64,000 bases of DNA from an uncultured Algibacter sp. (GTDB taxonomy: Bacteria > Bacteroidota > Bacteroidia > Flavobacteriales > Flavobacteriaceae), in contig NZ_CANLGU010000001.1 in NCBI RefSeq assembly GCF_947490405.1, positions 682,001-746,000 on the forward strand, read 5' to 3'. Under the pieces are notes generated by a model, which was not told the origin of the DNA, did not search any database, and was given only the letters and a program-made list of their open reading frames with translations. The position numbers were made by a program, and so were the translations under genes. Positions within the stretch are counted from its first letter, which is position 1; every line of letters starts with the position of its first letter. Shown one piece after another: positions 8,150 to 52,661 of the stretch.

Positions 8150-8500
8150 ATGGCTGAAAAACTCATTGATGCTAAAGAAGTAGCTTTAAAAAATAACTGC
8201 CCTGAATGCTATGATAATAGTGGTTTACGCTTAACTTTTAGACAAAAAATAAAAGACACTAAGTTTTATAAGTCAATTACTTCGGAAATTAGTCATGAAA
8301 TTATTTGTTTAAAATGTAACTCTATAATTTACCCTGTGCAGTGGACTGATGATATTGATCGTGTTTTTGAATACCAAAAGAAGGCATTCACTCCCAAAAA
8401 AGCATCAACGTATATTAAAAAAGCATCTTGGGTTGCTATAATATCCGCTTTTGTTCTGTTAACCTTGATATTAACTTTAATTTACTTTGTAGAATTATAG
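8150..8500 (+). CDS. Zinc-ribbon membrane protein, unknown function
   Basis: 116 residues. Two CxxC knuckles (Cys17/Cys20 in CPEC and Cys53/Cys56 in CLKC) form a zinc ribbon. A single C-terminal membrane helix covers about residues 92-114 and ends in a short tail. It starts 12 bp after the histidine kinase and is probably co-transcribed with it. A cytosolic zinc ribbon tethered to the membrane could sense or couple to the kinase (inference). Its stop overlaps the convergent HIT gene by 6 bp. Confidence 0.7.
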   Translation: MAEKLIDAKEVALKNNCPECYDNSGLRLTFRQKIKDTKFYKSITSEISHEIICLKCNSIIYPVQWTDDIDRVFEYQKKAFTPKKASTYIKKASWVAIISAFVLLTLILTLIYFVEL

Positions 8501-27523: not shown

Positions 27524-29068
27524 ATGGATAAAGAATTGATCATTCGATCTAGTTCCGACAATGTTGATTTTGCCTTATTAAAAGATGGAAAACTTATTGA
27601 ATTACAGAAAGACGAAGATGATAACGACTTTTCAGTTGGTGATGTGTTTATAGCCAAAATACGAAAAGCTGTTCCTGGTCTAAATGCTGCATTTGTTAAT
27701 GTAGGTTATGAGAAAGATGCCTTTTTGCATTATCATGATTTAGGACCAAAATTACCTTCTCTTTTAAAATTCACAAAACGTGTAAGCACAGGTAAACTAA
27801 AAGATTTTTCTTTAAAAAATTTCCCATTTGAAAAAGATATTGAGAAAGACGGTAAAATTACCGACGCCTTAAAATCTAATCAATCGCTATTAGTACAAAT
27901 CGTAAAAGAACCCATATCAACCAAAGGTCCAAGAATAACTTCAGAGTTATCCATCGCCGGAAGATATATCGTTTTAATGCCGTTTTCAAACCGTATTTCT
28001 ATTTCACAAAAAATAGAATCTCGCGAAGAGAAAGACCGCTTAAAGCGTTTGGTAAAGAGCATAGCTCCCCAAGGTTTTGGCGTTATTGTACGTACGGTAG
28101 CACAAGGCAAAAAAGTAGCTGAACTAGATAAAGATTTGCAAAATTTGCTTAGTCGTTGGACGGCAATGTGCAAAAAGCTACACAAAGCACATCACCCAAC
28201 CAAAGTATTAGGAGAAATGAATAAAGCCTCGTCAATTTTACGAGATATATTCAATGATACCTTTACTGGAATTACAGTGGACGATGAAACGCTTTATTAT
28301 CAAATTAAAGATTATGTGCAAGAAATTGCACCCAACAAAGAATCAATAGTTAAATTGTATCAGTCTAAAAATCCAATTTTTGAAAAATTTGGAATTGAAA
28401 GACAGATAAAAACCTCGTTTGGCAAAACCGTTTCTATGGCAAAAGGTGCTTATTTGGTAATTGAACATACTGAAGCCCTACATGTTATAGATGTAAACAG
28501 CGGAAACCGATCTAACAAAGCCAATAACCAAGAGGATACAGCACTAGAAGTAAATCTTATAGCAGCTACAGAAATGGCTCGACAATTACGCTTGCGTGAT
28601 ATGGGCGGTATCATAGTAGTAGATTTTATAGATATGACAAATGCTGCAAATAGGCAAAAGCTTTTTAACCATCTTCGTGATGAAATGAAAGATGATAGAG
28701 CAAAACACAAAATTTTGCCACCCAGTAAATTTGGGTTGATACAAATAACAAGACAACGCACAAGACCAGAAATGAACATTAAAACCCGCGAGGAAAACCC
28801 TAACGGTATTAATGGCGCTGAGGTTGAAGCACCAATAGGATTGGTACAAAAAATCAATCATGATCTTGAAAAACTATTTAAAAAAGACTATAAAAAGGTG
28901 ACCTTAAACACACATCCTTTTATAGCAGCCTTTTTAACAAAGGGCTTTCCATCTATACGTTCTAAATGGTTTTTAGAACACAAAAAATGGGTTAAAATTT
29001 TACCAAGAGATGCTTACACATACTTAGAATACCACTTTTTCGATAAAGATGGTAATCAAATTAAATAA
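27524..29068 (+). CDS. rng: Ribonuclease E/G family protein (RNase G type)
   Basis: 514 residues. It has the S1 RNA-binding insert (FSVGDVFIAKIRKAVPGLNAAFVNVGYEKDAFLHYHDL), the 5'-sensor/RNase H-like core and the DNase I-like catalytic region, with metal-binding Asp residues in LHVIDVNSGN and IIVVDFIDM, then GLIQITRQRTRPEM. It lacks the CPxC zinc-link found in E. coli RNase E/G, and has no long C-terminal degradosome scaffold. The final 28 codons and terminator are duplicated 1.4 kb downstream (30429-30558). Leader hairpins suggest post-transcriptional control. Confidence 0.95.
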   Translation: MDKELIIRSSSDNVDFALLKDGKLIELQKDEDDNDFSVGDVFIAKIRKAVPGLNAAFVNVGYEKDAFLHYHDLGPKLPSLLKFTKRVSTGKLKDFSLKNFPFEKDIEKDGKITDALKSNQSLLVQIVKEPISTKGPRITSELSIAGRYIVLMPFSNRISISQKIESREEKDRLKRLVKSIAPQGFGVIVRTVAQGKKVAELDKDLQNLLSRWTAMCKKLHKAHHPTKVLGEMNKASSILRDIFNDTFTGITVDDETLYYQIKDYVQEIAPNKESIVKLYQSKNPIFEKFGIERQIKTSFGKTVSMAKGAYLVIEHTEALHVIDVNSGNRSNKANNQEDTALEVNLIAATEMARQLRLRDMGGIIVVDFIDMTNAANRQKLFNHLRDEMKDDRAKHKILPPSKFGLIQITRQRTRPEMNIKTREENPNGINGAEVEAPIGLVQKINHDLEKLFKKDYKKVTLNTHPFIAAFLTKGFPSIRSKWFLEHKKWVKILPRDAYTYLEYHFFDKDGNQIK

Positions 29069-29111
29069 TTAAAAAACCCGCTACTTTTAAAGTTAGCGGG
29101 TTTTTTGTTTT
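28982..29111 (+). repeat. rng 3' end, copy 1 of a 130-bp direct repeat
   Basis: From codon 487 of rng through its terminator. Matches 30429-30558 at 128 of 130 positions with no gaps; the two differences are at 29082 and 29090, both in the terminator. Confidence 0.97.
29071..29106 (+). terminator. Intrinsic terminator of rng
   Basis: 13-bp stem (29071-29083 with 29094-29106), A-tract before and T-tract after. Confidence 0.9.
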
Positions 29112-29155
29112 TATAAAGTTTTGTTATTTCAAGTAATCTCTATTATACTTTAAAA

Positions 29156-30295
29156 TTATGTTTGAATTCCGCAATTACTTATTTGCAATATAGCACCAGA
29201 TGTACTTATCTTGTATGCCCGAGAACCTATTTTATACCATTTGTTATTTCCATTAAATATGGTTCCATATTCGTCTGTATAAAATATATCCCCTACTGCT
29301 AAAGCCCAGGTATTAGGTTTTTGAAAATAATAAGTCATAGATGTATTCTGAGAAGTACATGCTGATAATGCACTATTTCTCGGCCATCGTTCACCATTGT
29401 ATGAGCTAACTTCTATTGGTTGTGGTGGGGCTGGATATAAGTAATATACCCCTTGGATATCACCAGACGATAAACCAATACGTTGCACGTCAAAAGTTGT
29501 ACCATCTAATCTTGTAATTGTTGGTTGACCGTTACTTGAAAAAAAGTATGAGCCATACATCATTATTGACCCAAAATCAAAAAAACCAATATCAACACCC
29601 GTGCTTGTGCTTAAACTATACTCTTGAAAATTAGGAATACGATTATTAGGAGATGTGATGATATTATCCCAATGAATTTGCACATGATCATCTCTATCTT
29701 TTCTTGTGTGTTCATGAAATAGACCAATAGCATGCCCTATTTCGTGTATAGTATTACCAACCGAACACCCAGTAGCTAATCCTATTTCTTGTTTTCCTCC
29801 CTTTTTACCTATAGAATTAGACCAACATCCTGAATCAGGTATAAACTCAATATAATCTGACTGGAATGTACGCTGAATAAATGTAAGTTCAGTATTCGCT
29901 TCCCAATGAGAAATCGCATCTGTGACTCTGAACTGCAAAGGAAGACCACTATTAATTGTATAGTAAACAGTATTATTGGGCCACCTATAAACGCTTCCAC
30001 TTTCAACTGCGGATTTACTATTTACAGATTTTTTTTCATAATTATCTAATTCTTCATGAGATATAATAATATCTCCTTGAAAAATATATTCGTTATCTTT
30101 TTTCATTACCTGAACATCTACCCCACGATAATTTATTGTGACTATTTCACCAACGAAACCTGGGTATGCTTGTTCTGGTTTTGAATAAACAAAATTTTCC
30201 GGTTTTTCAATTTCGGGTTCTTCAATGCTATCGGAACAATTTTGAAGCAATAAAATCCCAACAAATAGAATTACAAATTTTAAGTAATTTTTCAT
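29156..30295 (-). CDS. Astacin-like (M12A) zinc metalloprotease lipoprotein
   Basis: 379 residues. The lipoprotein signal ends in LLQNC (Cys20). A propeptide-like region precedes the catalytic domain (from about residue 102, VYRWPNNTVYYTI), which carries the astacin zinc site HEIGHAIGLFHEHTRKDRDDH (His184, His188, His194, catalytic Glu185) and the Met-turn SIMMYGSYFFS. The family includes flavastacin. The C-terminal 80 residues form an extra domain with paired cysteines. It lies opposite to its neighbours, between two copies of the rng 3' end, so it was probably inserted there. Confidence 0.9.
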   Translation of the reverse strand: MKNYLKFVILFVGILLLQNCSDSIEEPEIEKPENFVYSKPEQAYPGFVGEIVTINYRGVDVQVMKKDNEYIFQGDIIISHEELDNYEKKSVNSKSAVESGSVYRWPNNTVYYTINSGLPLQFRVTDAISHWEANTELTFIQRTFQSDYIEFIPDSGCWSNSIGKKGGKQEIGLATGCSVGNTIHEIGHAIGLFHEHTRKDRDDHVQIHWDNIITSPNNRIPNFQEYSLSTSTGVDIGFFDFGSIMMYGSYFFSSNGQPTITRLDGTTFDVQRIGLSSGDIQGVYYLYPAPPQPIEVSSYNGERWPRNSALSACTSQNTSMTYYFQKPNTWALAVGDIFYTDEYGTIFNGNNKWYKIGSRAYKISTSGAILQISNCGIQT

Positions 30296-30428
30296 TTATT
30301 AATAATTTAATGGTTAATAAAAAAATTGTAATCTAAAATTAATATTTTGTGTTTTAATTTCTGATATTAAAATGGTAAAAAACTTTCGTTTTTTGAAAAA
30401 GTTAAAATTATTGATGTGGAAAACCCGT
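30296..30428. other. AT-rich spacer upstream of the astacin gene
   Basis: Part of the 328-bp gap between the astacin gene and the glycosyltransferase gene. Apart from the rng 3'-end copy that follows, I see no gene, hairpin or promoter consensus here. Confidence 0.6.
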
Positions 30429-30558
30429 AAAAAATGGGTTAAAATTTTACCAAGAGATGCTTACACATACTTAGAATACCACTTTTTCGATAAAGATGGT
30501 AATCAAATTAAATAATTAAAAAACCCGCAACTTTTATAGTTAGCGGGTTTTTTGTTTT
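30429..30558 (+). pseudogene. rng 3'-end fragment, copy 2 of the direct repeat
   Basis: Carries the last 28 codons and stop of rng (30429-30515) plus its terminator (30518-30553), without a start. Nearly identical to 28982-29111. The intact terminator should still work and would insulate the glycosyltransferase operon. Confidence 0.95.
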
Positions 30559-30564
30559 AAAAGG

Positions 30565-30594
30565 TTTCTCATAAACAAAGTATTTCTATATTTG
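30565..30594 (+). promoter_or_regulatory. Promoter for the glycosyltransferase pair
   Basis: TTTC (30565-30568), 18 nt, then TATATTTG (30587-30594), a perfect -7 box. Leader of about 25 nt. It begins just after the duplicated rng terminator. Confidence 0.65.
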
Positions 30595-30623
30595 ATCAGA
30601 GTAAAATTCTAAGAAAAGTAAAT

Positions 30624-31331
30624 ATGATTATTACTAAATTATCAATTATCATTCCTGTTTATAATGAAGCAAAGACCATTCATAAAATATTAAATAAAAT
30701 AAAAGATGTTATACTAATTAATAATATTGAAAAAGAACTTATTATTATTAATGACTGTTCTACAGATGATAGCGAAATTGCAATACAAAAATATGCAAAA
30801 AACAATCCTAATTTAAAGATTCAATACTTTAAACACCCTGTAAATATGGGCAAAGGAGCTGCATTACACACTGGCATTTCAATGGCTAAAGGTGAGTATA
30901 CAGTAATTCAAGATGCAGATCTAGAATACGATCCAGAGGAATATAATGAATTATTAGTTCCAATAGTTAAAGGTGCTGCAGATGTTGTTTATGGCTCTCG
31001 ATTTATGGGAAGTAAACCTCACAGAATTCTATTCTTTTGGCATACAATAGGGAATAAGTTTCTTACTTTTTTATCCAACATGTTTACCAATTTAAACCTA
31101 ACAGACATGGAAACCTGCTATAAAATGTTTAATACTTCAATTCTTCAAAGCTTAAAATTAAAAGAAAAAAGATTTGGGTTTGAACCAGAAGTTACTGCAA
31201 AAATTGCTAAAATAAAGGAAATACGGATTTATGAAATAGGAATCAGTTATTATGGAAGAACTTACTTAGAAGGCAAAAAAATTAGCTGGAAGGATGGTTT
31301 TAGAGCTATTTACTGTATTTTAAAATATTAA
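30624..31331 (+). CDS. Family 2 glycosyltransferase (DPM1/polyprenyl-phosphate type)
   Basis: 235 residues. The GT-A fold is clear: [14 protein letters not shown] at the N-terminus, [30 protein letters not shown], and the metal-binding [13 protein letters not shown], then GSRFMG and [13 protein letters not shown]. This is the dolichol/undecaprenyl-phosphate sugar synthase branch, which makes a lipid-linked sugar donor. No membrane helices are attached. The next gene, 1 nt downstream, is a GT-C membrane glycosyltransferase, the usual user of such donors. Confidence 0.9.
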
Positions 31332-31332
31332 A

Positions 31333-32805
31333 ATGATTTTTCAATTATTATTCGGAAATCCAAATCATAAAAACCTATATTTCATTTTACCTATATTATT
31401 TTTTTGGTTGATTTTATTATCGTTTAACAAAAAGTCATTTTTATCTTTTTTTTCAAAAATCTTATTTTTTTTTAAAGATTGTTTTAAGTTCTATTGGTTA
31501 TCAGCCATTTTTTTGATTGTATTGGTTTGTTATGGTTTGTATTTACCTCTATCTTATGATGAGTCATACACCTTTATTCAATTTGTAAATCGAAGTATTT
31601 TTTATGCTACCTGTACTTACCCAGTACCAAATAATCATGTATTACATTCTATCTTTAGTAATATTTCATGGCATATATTAGGCTGGACAAATTTGGCATT
31701 AATTGTACGGATACCCTCTATATTAGCTTCTTATTTATTAATGAATATTTTTATTACTAAAATATCAAAAAACAACTTATTTTATTCTGGGTTATTTTTA
31801 ATATTACTTTTATTTAACTTCCCTTATTTAGCTTTTTCATTTCAAGCTAGAGGCTATTCATTTCAAATTTTAATTGCTGTTATTACATTAGTTATTATCT
31901 TTAAAAGTTCAAACATTAAGACCTTTAAAGACAAAAATAATTTAATTCTATTTTTTTCAACACTTGGTCTCTATACTAGTCCTGCATACCTTTATACTTT
32001 TCTACCTTTATATTCAATGTTTTTAATAATTAATAAGAATTTTTGTTTAGAGTCTGTAAAATATATTTTAAAATCGGGTGTGTTTTTTGCGCTTACAGTT
32101 ATTCTCCTATATGCACCCATAATGATATTTAGAGGTTATGAATCTATTATTTATAATAGATATGTTGCACCGTTAGATCATTTAAGTATTCATGAAGCCT
32201 TTAATCATATTACCATATCTTTTACAGAAGTTTTAGGAGGAAAAATTATAAGTCTCTTAGTACTCTTATTAGTTGTATTTTATACTATAGTAAAAAGAAG
32301 ATTTGTAATTTTAGTATTATTTTTGATTCCGATAATTTTAATGCTCGTGTTAAAACAAACCCCTTTTTCACGTGTATTCTTACCATTAGCTACAGTTGTT
32401 GTGGTTATAGCAATTGCAGACCTAAAGGATGGTTTTAAAAACACAAAACAACTTAATCCTATGATTTACATTCTTTTCATAGGTGTTTCGATTGCTACTT
32501 CAACATTTTTATTTTTTAAAAATCCAAACGGTGGATTAGAAACATCATATCGAGTAAAATATTTATCTAAACATTTTGATAATAGAGATGTTTATTTGAC
32601 ACCTAATACTCACGATTATTTAAAAACACCTATTGAAGCTTATTTACAAGTTAATGAGATAAATTATACTTTATTAAATAAGGATACTAAATTAAAAGAA
32701 GGGGCCATATTAATATATTCTGAAAAGAATATAGAAAACATTAAAATTTTAGATTCGGTACCCTCTCTAAACAAAAAGGTTTATGTAGGTAAAGTTGTTT
32801 TTTAA
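31333..32805 (+). CDS. GT-C family membrane glycosyltransferase
   Basis: 490 residues with about 11-12 membrane helices. The first periplasmic loop has LSYDESYTF, with the acidic pair expected at the GT-C active site (ArnT/PMT-like). The C-terminal 90 residues are a soluble periplasmic domain. It would transfer a sugar from a polyprenyl-phosphate donor onto a lipid, glycan or protein acceptor. It starts 1 nt after the GT2 gene. The AT content is visibly high, which fits a transferred accessory module, but I have not measured it. Confidence 0.8.
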   Translation: MIFQLLFGNPNHKNLYFILPILFFWLILLSFNKKSFLSFFSKILFFFKDCFKFYWLSAIFLIVLVCYGLYLPLSYDESYTFIQFVNRSIFYATCTYPVPNNHVLHSIFSNISWHILGWTNLALIVRIPSILASYLLMNIFITKISKNNLFYSGLFLILLLFNFPYLAFSFQARGYSFQILIAVITLVIIFKSSNIKTFKDKNNLILFFSTLGLYTSPAYLYTFLPLYSMFLIINKNFCLESVKYILKSGVFFALTVILLYAPIMIFRGYESIIYNRYVAPLDHLSIHEAFNHITISFTEVLGGKIISLLVLLLVVFYTIVKRRFVILVLFLIPIILMLVLKQTPFSRVFLPLATVVVVIAIADLKDGFKNTKQLNPMIYILFIGVSIATSTFLFFKNPNGGLETSYRVKYLSKHFDNRDVYLTPNTHDYLKTPIEAYLQVNEINYTLLNKDTKLKEGAILIYSEKNIENIKILDSVPSLNKKVYVGKVVF

Positions 32806-32826: not shown

Positions 32827-33858
32827 TCAAGGTGCAGGATTAGGTATGACTTGGTGCACCTCATTAATTTGTTTTAAAGTTTCCTTATTTAAAGTAACAT
32901 CAATACTTGCAATGTTTTCATTAAGTTGCTCTAAGCTTGTTGCTCCAATAATCGTACTAGTTACAAAAGGGCGCTGGTTTACAAAGGCTAAACTCATTTG
33001 CGCTAAAGTCATGTTATTATTTTCTGCAATGTTCAAGTAACGTTTTGCTGCTTCAGTAGCTTGTTTACTACTATACCTTGCAAATCTTGGAAATAGTTTT
33101 AATCTTGAATCATCCGCTGCCGTTTCTGTGATATACTTTCCAGAAAGTACGCCAAATGCCATTGGTGAATAGGCTAATAGACCAACGTTTTCTCTTAAAG
33201 ACACTTCTGCTAAGTCAGTTTCAAAAGTTCGGGTTAGCATCGAGTATGCATTTTGTATAGTTGACAATCTTGGTAAATTATGATGTTTTGATTCTTCCAA
33301 ATAACGCATGGTGCCCCAAGAGTTTTCGTTTGAGATGCCTATGTTTCTAATTCTGCCCGCTTTAATTTCATTGTCTAAACTAAGAAGCACCTCATTAAAG
33401 TTATCTTCCCATTTGGTATCCAATTTAAAATTTCTAACACCAAACCTATTGGTATCTCTCTCCGGCCAATGGAGTTGATATAAATCGATATAATCGGTTT
33501 GAAGTCTTTTTAATTCTAAATCTATTGCTTCTTTTATTGACGCTGGACTAAATCCTGTAGTTCGAATATGTGCGGTATAATCTCCCGTTCCAGCAATTTT
33601 TGATGCTATAACTACTTGATCTCGTTTACCTGTTTTTTTAAGCCATGTGCCAACAATTTCACTTGTTTTTCCTTGAGTTTCTGCAGTGGCTGGCACAGGA
33701 TATAATTCGGCAGTATCAATAAAATTAACGCCTTGGTCTGTGGCGTAATCTATTTGTTGATGCCCTTCAGCTTCGGTATTTTGGTTTCCCCAAGTCATAG
33801 AACCTAGACATATTTTACTAACTTTTATATCGGTATTGGGAATGGTTGTGTATTTCAT
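32827..33858 (-). CDS. Aldo/keto reductase (Tas-like)
   Basis: 343 residues. It reduces aldehydes or ketones with NADPH on a TIM barrel. The tetrad is visible: Asp48 in NFIDTAELYP, Tyr53, the Lys in VIASKIAG and the His in YQLHWPERD. Later blocks NIGISNENSWG, QNAYSMLTR and TSTIIGATSLEQLNENI bind NADP. The overall order and ETQGKTSEIVGTWLKKTGKR stretch match the Tas subgroup. Monocistronic. Confidence 0.92.
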   Translation of the reverse strand: MKYTTIPNTDIKVSKICLGSMTWGNQNTEAEGHQQIDYATDQGVNFIDTAELYPVPATAETQGKTSEIVGTWLKKTGKRDQVVIASKIAGTGDYTAHIRTTGFSPASIKEAIDLELKRLQTDYIDLYQLHWPERDTNRFGVRNFKLDTKWEDNFNEVLLSLDNEIKAGRIRNIGISNENSWGTMRYLEESKHHNLPRLSTIQNAYSMLTRTFETDLAEVSLRENVGLLAYSPMAFGVLSGKYITETAADDSRLKLFPRFARYSSKQATEAAKRYLNIAENNNMTLAQMSLAFVNQRPFVTSTIIGATSLEQLNENIASIDVTLNKETLKQINEVHQVIPNPAP

Positions 33859-52059: not shown

Positions 52060-52326
52060 ATGAAAAAACCTACTAACAAACCTACTCTTATTCCCAGAAT
52101 GTATTGTAATCTTTTTGGACATGATTTCGAAGTTTCAAAAAAAGTAACATACCATGTTAAAGAATACACTTGCAGACATTGTAAAAAAGAATTAACTACT
52201 AACAGCAATGGTCAACTAATAGAGCTCACTCCTAAATTTAAAGAGATAAATGCAATATTAGAACGGATTCATGCCTCAAGAACTGAACGTTTAAAGAAAA
52301 AAAGCATCGCTTCATCGATTTATTAA
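52060..52326 (+). CDS. Small zinc-ribbon protein (DUF1660-like), paralogue A
   Basis: 88 residues. The motif Cys16-x3-Gly-His21 (YCNLFGHDF) and Cys38-x2-Cys41 (YTCRHCKKEL) form a predicted zinc site like that of DUF1660 proteins, followed by ELTTNSNGQLIELTPKFKEIN and a basic tail. Two further paralogues are in this window: 52401-52661 (adjacent, nearly identical from the CxxC onward) and 58593-58802 (diverged). Function unknown; a nucleic-acid or RNAP-associated role is possible. Confidence 0.75.
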   Translation: MKKPTNKPTLIPRMYCNLFGHDFEVSKKVTYHVKEYTCRHCKKELTTNSNGQLIELTPKFKEINAILERIHASRTERLKKKSIASSIY

Positions 52327-52400: not shown

Positions 52401-52661
52401 ATGAAAAGCATACATTGTATGGTGTTTGGGCATGAATACAAAGTAACAAGACAAGTTACTTATCATGTTCAGGAGTACACTTGTAAAAACTGCAAAAAAG
52501 AGCTTACTACAAACAGTAACGGAAACCTGATAGAACTCACACCAAAATTTAAAGAGATTAATGATGTTCTTGAGCGAATTCATCATAAACGGCTGGTAAG
52601 AATGAATAAGAGAAAAAAGCTCCGTCAAACTCAAGAAAAAGCTAAATTGATGACTGCTTAA
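52401..52661 (+). CDS. Small zinc-ribbon protein (DUF1660-like), paralogue B
   Basis: 86 residues. Zinc ligands Cys6, His11 (HCMVFGHEY), Cys28 and Cys31 (YTCKNCKKEL). The central part KKELTTNSNGNLIELTPKFKEIN is nearly identical to paralogue A, and the tail is strongly basic. It arose by tandem duplication, with a 74-bp gap. Its stop overlaps the convergent thiL gene by 4 bp. Confidence 0.75.
   Translation: MKSIHCMVFGHEYKVTRQVTYHVQEYTCKNCKKELTTNSNGNLIELTPKFKEINDVLERIHHKRLVRMNKRKKLRQTQEKAKLMTA

Follow-up and report, generated by a model that had tools for sequence, protein, structure and literature searches.

The 3' end of rng, an RNase E/G family gene, occurs twice in direct orientation around a gene for an astacin-type metalloprotease in an uncultured Algibacter sp., and we think it likely that this arrangement arose by an additive insertion that combined one homologous crossover in rng with one illegitimate joint and that would need no dedicated mobile element. 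The stretch analyzed here (64,000 nt; positions 682,001 to 746,000 of contig NZ_CANLGU010000001.1; hereafter the window) comes from a 23-contig draft genome that the named relatives place next to Algibacter.

A direct repeat of the rng end and its empty counterpart

The first-pass annotation of the window, made from the sequence alone, had described a 130-bp direct repeat of the rng 3' end around a single lipoprotein metalloprotease gene on the opposite strand, with two intact terminators, and this description held throughout. The two copies (Table 1) agree at 128 of 130 positions (98%) and start 1447 nt apart, with all 84 coding nt (28 sense codons) identical and both mismatches within the terminator, a match far beyond chance. 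A whole-genome search recovered only these two full-length copies, which were also the sole matches longer than 50 bp; the four remaining matches were terminator-like and 36-48 bp long, two of them being these same terminators on the other strand. Within the window this was the sole near-identical direct repeat of at least 40 bp (seed 14), the other two repeat families being 73% and 76% alike. The protease gene, which is the only open reading frame (ORF) of at least 80 aa between the copies, is assigned to Astacin by Pfam and carries a lipoprotein-type signal peptide as read by eye, and both terminators fold as strong hairpins on either strand (-17.7 to -19.1 kcal/mol; z -4.5 to -6.5). By this folding terminator 1 is bidirectional and would serve both rng on the plus strand and the protease gene on the minus strand. 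A rule-based scan reported no terminators, for which we suspect its loop/stem rule, and no RNA family reached its gathering score within 28900-30700.

Comparison with Algibacter sp. 4-1434 (loci L058 and L050) revealed the one-copy empty site that the first-pass annotation, which already suspected an insertion, had proposed to look for in relatives. There, rng and one terminator lead to GTTTTAAAAGGTTTCTCATAAACAAAG.. and on to the same two genes that follow copy 2 in the window. The right flank of copy 2, GTTTTAAAAGGTTTCTCATAAACAAAG.., continues as in L058/L050, and that of copy 1 is unlike the empty site L058. Because L058/L050 lacks the protease unit and has the same flank after the rng terminator, copy 2 reads as the displaced resident rng end, and copy 1 together with the protease gene as a 1447-bp addition. 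Among the genomes listed by the protein search, two of the genus, G002 and G009, had no match to the protease gene. One could also suspect an assembly artefact at a repeat near read length, given the draft state of the genome, yet the same structure is present in a single-contig genome (G316), and the copies in the window carry two base differences between unlike flanks, such that we give this explanation next to no weight.

The same scar with other cargo in other genera

We surveyed 397 genomes of the family with the 84-nt rng end, which matched 286 of them at E <= 0.01, and the 33 genomes besides the window's with more than one match were re-run. In five of these 33 a second same-strand copy lies no more than 4 kb away, which with the window genome gives 6/286 genomes in five genera, a floor given that only two candidates were scored per genome; for the remaining 28, the additional match is mostly weak and either distant or on a different contig. 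The six scar genomes are G000 (the window's), G022, G252, G149, G316 and G170 (= L086, Snuella sedimenti). Their repeats measure 130 bp in the window and 175, 124, 160, 172 and 75 bp in the other five, with start-to-start distances of 0.9-3.8 kb, and every repeat begins inside rng and ends at or near the end of the terminator, or, in G316, inside it. The cargo is unrelated across the six loci (Table 1), and that of G252 is plausibly a toxin with immunity genes. Other genes at the same site, which the first-pass annotation had suggested looking for, were found between rng-end copies as well. The two outcomes it had held against an insertion, namely relatives that all share both copies and the gene without variation and a repeat scattered elsewhere with no insert, did not occur: relatives vary at the site, and the window genome has no further full-length copy.

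Two of the scar genomes, G022 and G252, belong to the same genus and have a common distal resident gene (DUF5004 in G022; the homologue in G252 recognized by eye), which points to two different cargos having entered one site in one genus. G402 was considered as an empty site for this pair and dropped, as its contig ends about 500 bp after rng. Scars are also stacked, with a third terminator copy in G149 and G316, and in G119, the sister of G316, the rng terminator leads straight to the block that follows the last terminator of G316. A weaker case is L102 (Confluentibacter sediminis), with a 30-nt copy.

Direct repeats would equally be left by a tandem duplication of the rng end and its downstream cargo, followed by deletion and divergence, and transformation-linked tandem duplications are known in Streptococcus pneumoniae (PMC3784515). 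However, the genes after copy 1 and after copy 2 are unrelated in the window and at the other scar loci, the sister empty sites of two loci (L058 and G119) hold the distal cargo alone, and duplication of the rng end could not by itself supply a protease gene, which together make this origin very improbable.

Joints and the search for a recombinase

Counted from the end of the stop codon, the exact match between copies starts at 87 nt in the window, 101 in L196, 86 in L198, 101 in L199, 130 in L197 and 33 in both L086 and L102, with weaker similarity reaching further left than the exact match in L196. Because the start points in rng differ between genomes, over a range of 33-130 nt, there appears to be no fixed att core. 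A scan of the contig to a distance of 60 kb, covering the tyrosine recombinase family PF00589 alone, gave no match in any of the six scar genomes (in G022 and G170 the contig begins 6-8 kb ahead of the rng end), and there is no transposase ORF between the copies, in agreement with the first-pass annotation, which had seen neither integrase nor transposase. Of the marks of an integrase island, the element has neither an integrase gene nor a constant att core, and those of an insertion sequence or transposon (terminal inverted repeats, a transposase and a short target duplication) are likewise missing, since the only inverted repeats to place an arm at either copy are the two terminators themselves. 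The first-pass annotation had left the choice between a small mobile unit of unknown kind using the rng 3' end and a recombination event; a recombinase-driven unit finds no support here because a constant core is lacking and ordinary recombination is enough, and the second option fits better.

A recombinase supplied in trans might still recognize the rng 3' end and insert units with a replacement rng tail that are non-autonomous or decayed. Such an element would account for the intact host gene with a distal copy left behind, as in gene-end integration by phages and islands, for the repeated use of one gene end in five genera, for start-to-start distances of 0.9-3.8 kb, and for joints that coincide in two locus pairs. 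With repeat starts ranging so widely without a common core, no PF00589 match nearby in six of six genomes (no genome-wide search was made for serine recombinases or DDE transposases) and no phage match for the unit, we judge it unlikely.

Gene-end repeats beyond rng

The 3' end of rpmA, used as a control, had one match each in 192 of the 397 genomes and a second match at E <= 1e-5 in none of the 192, a threshold that all six rng second copies pass. No comparable gene-end repeat was found in 400 kb of the window genome (about 11%), where all five repeats listed belong to neighboring ORFs that resemble each other, lying inside or between them, and the idea of a genome-wide habit of gene-end repeats was dropped on this result. 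A set of loci totaling 1.85 Mb, some of them overlapping and most of them centered on rng, yielded 15 listed repeats, namely seven rng scars (at six loci) and eight others, one of which is again a gene-end copy around cargo: the mutY 3' end in Jejuia sp. UBA6058 (L070:7207-7265 / 8200-8258; 59 bp, 58 identical, 98%) flanks a 258-aa lipoprotein-like gene. The mechanism is probably not tied to rng, and rng may be a favored place for it.

As for the two weaker repeat families of the window, one is a 177-nt direct repeat (52096-52272 / 52407-52583; 73% alike, spacing 311), and the other is an 85-nt stretch, 76% alike, shared by adjacent minus-strand ORFs of 206 aa (1383-2003 / 2100-2720) that are probably tandem paralogues.

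The rng-to-reductase interval and its cargo

Among the rng loci of 80 named relatives, 72 had enough downstream sequence, and 41 of these have an aldo/keto reductase homologue no more than 9 kb past rng. Cargo separates the two genes in 34 of the 41 loci, with the first cargo gene falling into 28 clusters, and the reductase directly follows rng without cargo in the other 7. The site seems to turn over rapidly in the Algibacter part of the family and to be stable in another. The seven readable genomes of the genus have other genes downstream of rng; the contig with rng is broken off at this point in G007, and no match was obtained for G004. The break in G007 (locus L048) and that in a Flaviramulus sp. 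(L066) fall at an identical base immediately before the stop codon, between ..ggtaatcaaatt and GTCTAGTCCTAAATA.., and the sequence beyond both breaks is nearly alike, as if one insertion sequence had used an identical target.

The resident block behind copy 2 had been described as a glycosyltransferase pair, which stands for its first gene by Pfam and does not extend to the second ORF, which has no Pfam match. In 250-nt bins the block is 96-98% identical to L058, and the bins either side are 63-94% identical, mostly 75-92%, from which the block itself appears to have been recently exchanged. It is also low in G+C (window 30600-32800; 24-28% vs about 35-38% in most flanking bins).

Five further loci have a metalloprotease gene at the site, in each case convergent with rng, and L102 has a remnant (Table 1); together these genes represent several families (astacin, matrixin, M57 and reprolysin-like) in different genera. 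The best structural match of the window protease in the Protein Data Bank (PDB) is 8a28_A (E 3.1e-26), followed by meprin beta, and the protein contains HEIGHAIGLFHEH and SIMMY, which we take to be the astacin signatures for the zinc site and the Met-turn, respectively. Astacin-like matches occur in 32 of the 397 family genomes, at 38 listed places, and besides the window at least two of them (G080 and G183) adjoin rng. The unit has no phage match, and its matches to plasmid proteins are remote, with each of 18 records under 60% and the 8 listed under 40%.

Upstream of the protease gene lies a conserved box, GTGGAAAACCCGTAAAAAA in plus-strand letters, with similar boxes upstream of the metalloprotease genes at the rng site in L071, L068, L080 and L102, and this box is probably a regulatory site. 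The boxes are near-palindromic, for example TACGGGAAAACCGTA in L068, and stand about 120-190 nt upstream of secreted metalloprotease genes; the cargo of L199 has a similar TTACGGAAAAACCATA. Genome-wide the box is not in excess, with 10 matches vs 11 for the reversed control. In both the window and L102, GGAAAACC(C)GTAAAAA stands right against the rng copy; a shared element end was considered on this basis and dropped because similar boxes in L071, L068 and L080 have no adjoining rng copy and because of this lack of genome-wide enrichment.

These cargos bear on whether the units are dedicated cassettes, that is, circles released by recombination between rng-end copies that enter the rng of other cells, with the rng tail as their own means of moving. 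RecA acting on copies of 75-175 bp would suffice for both leaving and re-entering, metalloprotease cargo recurs at the same site in several genera, and in L102 a similar box lies directly against the rng-end remnant. Yet no circle was observed, only L102 and the window might share a joint and their rng endpoints differ (33 vs 87 nt), and the protease genes of L071, L068 and L080 have no adjoining second rng copy, so that we find such cassettes quite unlikely.

Table 1. Features of the rng site in the window and cargo at scar and metalloprotease loci in relatives. Positions are those of the window unless a locus is given.
Feature	Position	Strand	Remarks
rng, RNase E/G family, anchor gene	27524-29068	+	intact, 514 aa; PF10150 E 5.1e-101
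Repeat copy 1: final 84 coding nt of rng with stop codon and terminator	28982-29111	+	128/130 to copy 2
Terminator 1	29070-29107	both strands	fold -19.1 (+), -18.3 (-) kcal/mol; z -4.9, -4.5
Cargo: predicted lipoprotein astacin-type (M12A) metalloprotease, 379 aa	29156-30295	-	PF01400 E 2.3e-39
Conserved box	30415-30433	-	about 120-140 nt upstream of protease start; partly by eye
Novel joint, cargo upstream region / rng 3' end	30428-30429		A6 run, 87 nt from stop-codon end
Repeat copy 2: read as displaced resident rng end (orphan 28 codons) with terminator	30429-30558	+	fold -18.9 kcal/mol
Resident glycosyltransferase family 2 gene	30624-31331	+	PF00535 E 3.1e-32; 96-98% DNA identity to L058
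Second ORF of the pair, 490 aa	31333-32805	+	hydrophobic/membrane-protein-like by eye; no Pfam match
Aldo/keto reductase, core gene bounding the variable interval on the right	32827-33858	-	PF00248 E 2.8e-66
G022 cargo			114-aa lipoprotein-like gene
G252 cargo	L198:8314-11724		AHH-nuclease protein, then two ORFs without Pfam match
G149 cargo			lipoprotein-like genes; the two scanned without Pfam match
G316 cargo			168-aa ORF
G170 cargo			lipoprotein and AraC-type regulator, by eye
L071, Flavivirga rizhaonensis		convergent with rng	Astacin
L068		convergent with rng	Matrixin M10
L080		convergent with rng	M57
G080 (L203)		convergent with rng	Astacin
G183 (L204)		convergent with rng	M10-type
L102			remnant; 207-aa ORF, reprolysin-like matches

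A proposed route by one-sided homologous insertion

Homologous exchange in rng does occur within the genus. Against L052, the window shows a breakpoint near 28405, with 2.3% mismatch before it and 10.8% after it (0/500 permutations), and six other relatives show weaker changes along rng at other places (14-69 of 500 permutations). L052 and L056 are 3.6% apart in the 3' part of rng (the last third) and 7.7% apart in the 5' part, and because the 3' part of L052 is closest to L056, the exchange at 28405 probably belongs to the L052/L056 lineage. We had considered this breakpoint as the homologous crossover of the protease event and rejected it, the 3' part of L052 being L056-like. As expected of a recombination hotspot, homologous exchange is seen in the flanking core gene rng and in the glycosyltransferase block. 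The ComEC and DprA families are both present in the window genome, which is compatible with transformation, but most control genomes match both families as well.

Under the one-sided insertion that we favor, the interval from rng to the aldo/keto reductase would be a high-turnover cargo site that trades its contents through recombination in the core genes on either side. The incoming DNA would have carried an rng 3' end, a terminator and the protease gene, and the recipient would have had rng, a terminator and the glycosyltransferase pair. The first end would have been joined by homology in rng, which would explain why rng was kept intact, and the second end, just upstream of the protease promoter region, would have been joined without extended homology 87 nt before the resident rng end, such that this end, its terminator and the older cargo were pushed downstream. 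The fragment could have been linear (homology-facilitated illegitimate recombination) or closed into a circle that then entered by a single crossover in rng, two routes that give the same product and are indistinguishable here. Either way the incoming DNA would supply its own rng end and terminator, at which rng and a convergent cargo gene could both end, and the displaced copy would keep a terminator between old and new cargo, an arrangement that would leave rng intact and the cargo quiet. Repeats this long should permit RecA-dependent loss, so scars may be transient, with short ones favored.

Several observations weigh against this route or its reach. The breakpoint at 28405 shows exchange in rng, but not in the protease event, and the coding parts of the copies are identical (84/84), so they do not themselves show a donor-derived end. 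No donor chromosome is known, the nearest protease seen at this site, the Astacin of L071, being 68% identical over 294 aa. The seven joints fall within ~130 nt of the rng end, a narrower range than free choice along 1.5 kb predicts, for which instability of longer repeats could account. Four of the seven start in an A/T run of at least 5, where about 14-19% is expected per joint; this pattern, noticed after the fact, may point to microhomology. Two pairs of joints coincide, a post hoc hint of preferred endpoints. The contrast with the rpmA control is weak (6/286 vs 0/192, Fisher two-sided p 0.086; p 0.041 when restricted to about 260 genomes with an rng match at 1e-5), and the rpmA end is less conserved than the rng end. 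As to turnover, the reductase is absent within 9 kb in 31 of the 72 loci, 16 of the 72 (Bizionia, Lacinutrix, Hanstruepera and others) keep one stable arrangement, two of them with a reductase homologue further on, and the seven loci with the reductase right after rng carry no cargo.

A bolder version, which we hold to be rather unlikely, would make the housekeeping-gene 3' end with its bidirectional terminator a reusable and insulated docking tail: recombinase-free cassettes carrying a copy of the tail would circulate between genera as circles, dock behind rng by a single crossover and stack there, leaving rng intact and pushing older cassettes downstream, with A/T runs as preferred endpoints. 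The cassettes would hold secreted metalloproteases, nuclease toxins with candidate immunity genes, and lipoproteins.

Comparison with known systems

A limited literature search found nothing relevant in print on this site. The minimal mobile elements of Neisseria (Saunders/Snyder) are reportedly gene sets swapped between two conserved genes by homologous recombination without a recombinase, and such replacement is said to leave no duplicated gene end. The rng site resembles them in having differing cargo between the same two conserved genes and no recombinase, and differs in that it adds cargo rather than swaps it and leaves a 130-bp duplicated flank.

For the displacement of Rhs C-termini (tips), Jackson et al. 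2009 proposed a circle and a single crossover (PMC2935791). In that account, as at the rng site, incoming DNA is placed after a conserved sequence, and the former 3' end, together with a stretch of core that varies in length, moves downstream as a direct repeat; insertions also stack. At rng, too, the displaced resident end is kept downstream as a direct repeat of variable length. The Rhs anchor, however, is described as the gene's own core and the displaced tip as its variable C-terminus, whereas the rng site uses a housekeeping gene unrelated to its cargo as anchor, displaces an end that is almost unchanged in sequence and carries separate genes as cargo.

Both proposed routes have counterparts: circular molecules entering by a single crossover in E. 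coli gave duplications of 109-950 bp in 14 sequenced clones (PMC3240628), and a linear route was proposed for type VI secretion system (T6SS) effector-immunity arrays in Vibrio cholerae (PMC5361080). The products are alike in having one homologous and one illegitimate joint, or a partial duplication of the homologous end, and in displacing older modules in sequence. These cases, by the same accounts, are laboratory crosses or proposals, unlike the natural scars seen here at a housekeeping gene in Flavobacteriaceae.

Many accessory-gene hotspots are without a recognizable mobile element and show recombination in the core genes beside them (Oliveira et al. 2017, PMC5635113), and in these respects the rng site is one of them. 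The model given in that paper is double recombination at the flanks, which replaces cargo and would leave no such scar, whereas the rng scar records a one-sided additive gain. The arrangement at rng is a natural and recurrent case of additive, one-sided homologous insertion, known in its principles, unusual in its anchor and readable in its scar. Duplicated gene ends of this kind are a footprint of additive gain: they show which cargo arrived first, where its endpoint lies and what was resident before, and they can be counted automatically. If they are general (a single mutY case was found too), the balance between replacement and addition at such sites would become measurable from genomes alone.

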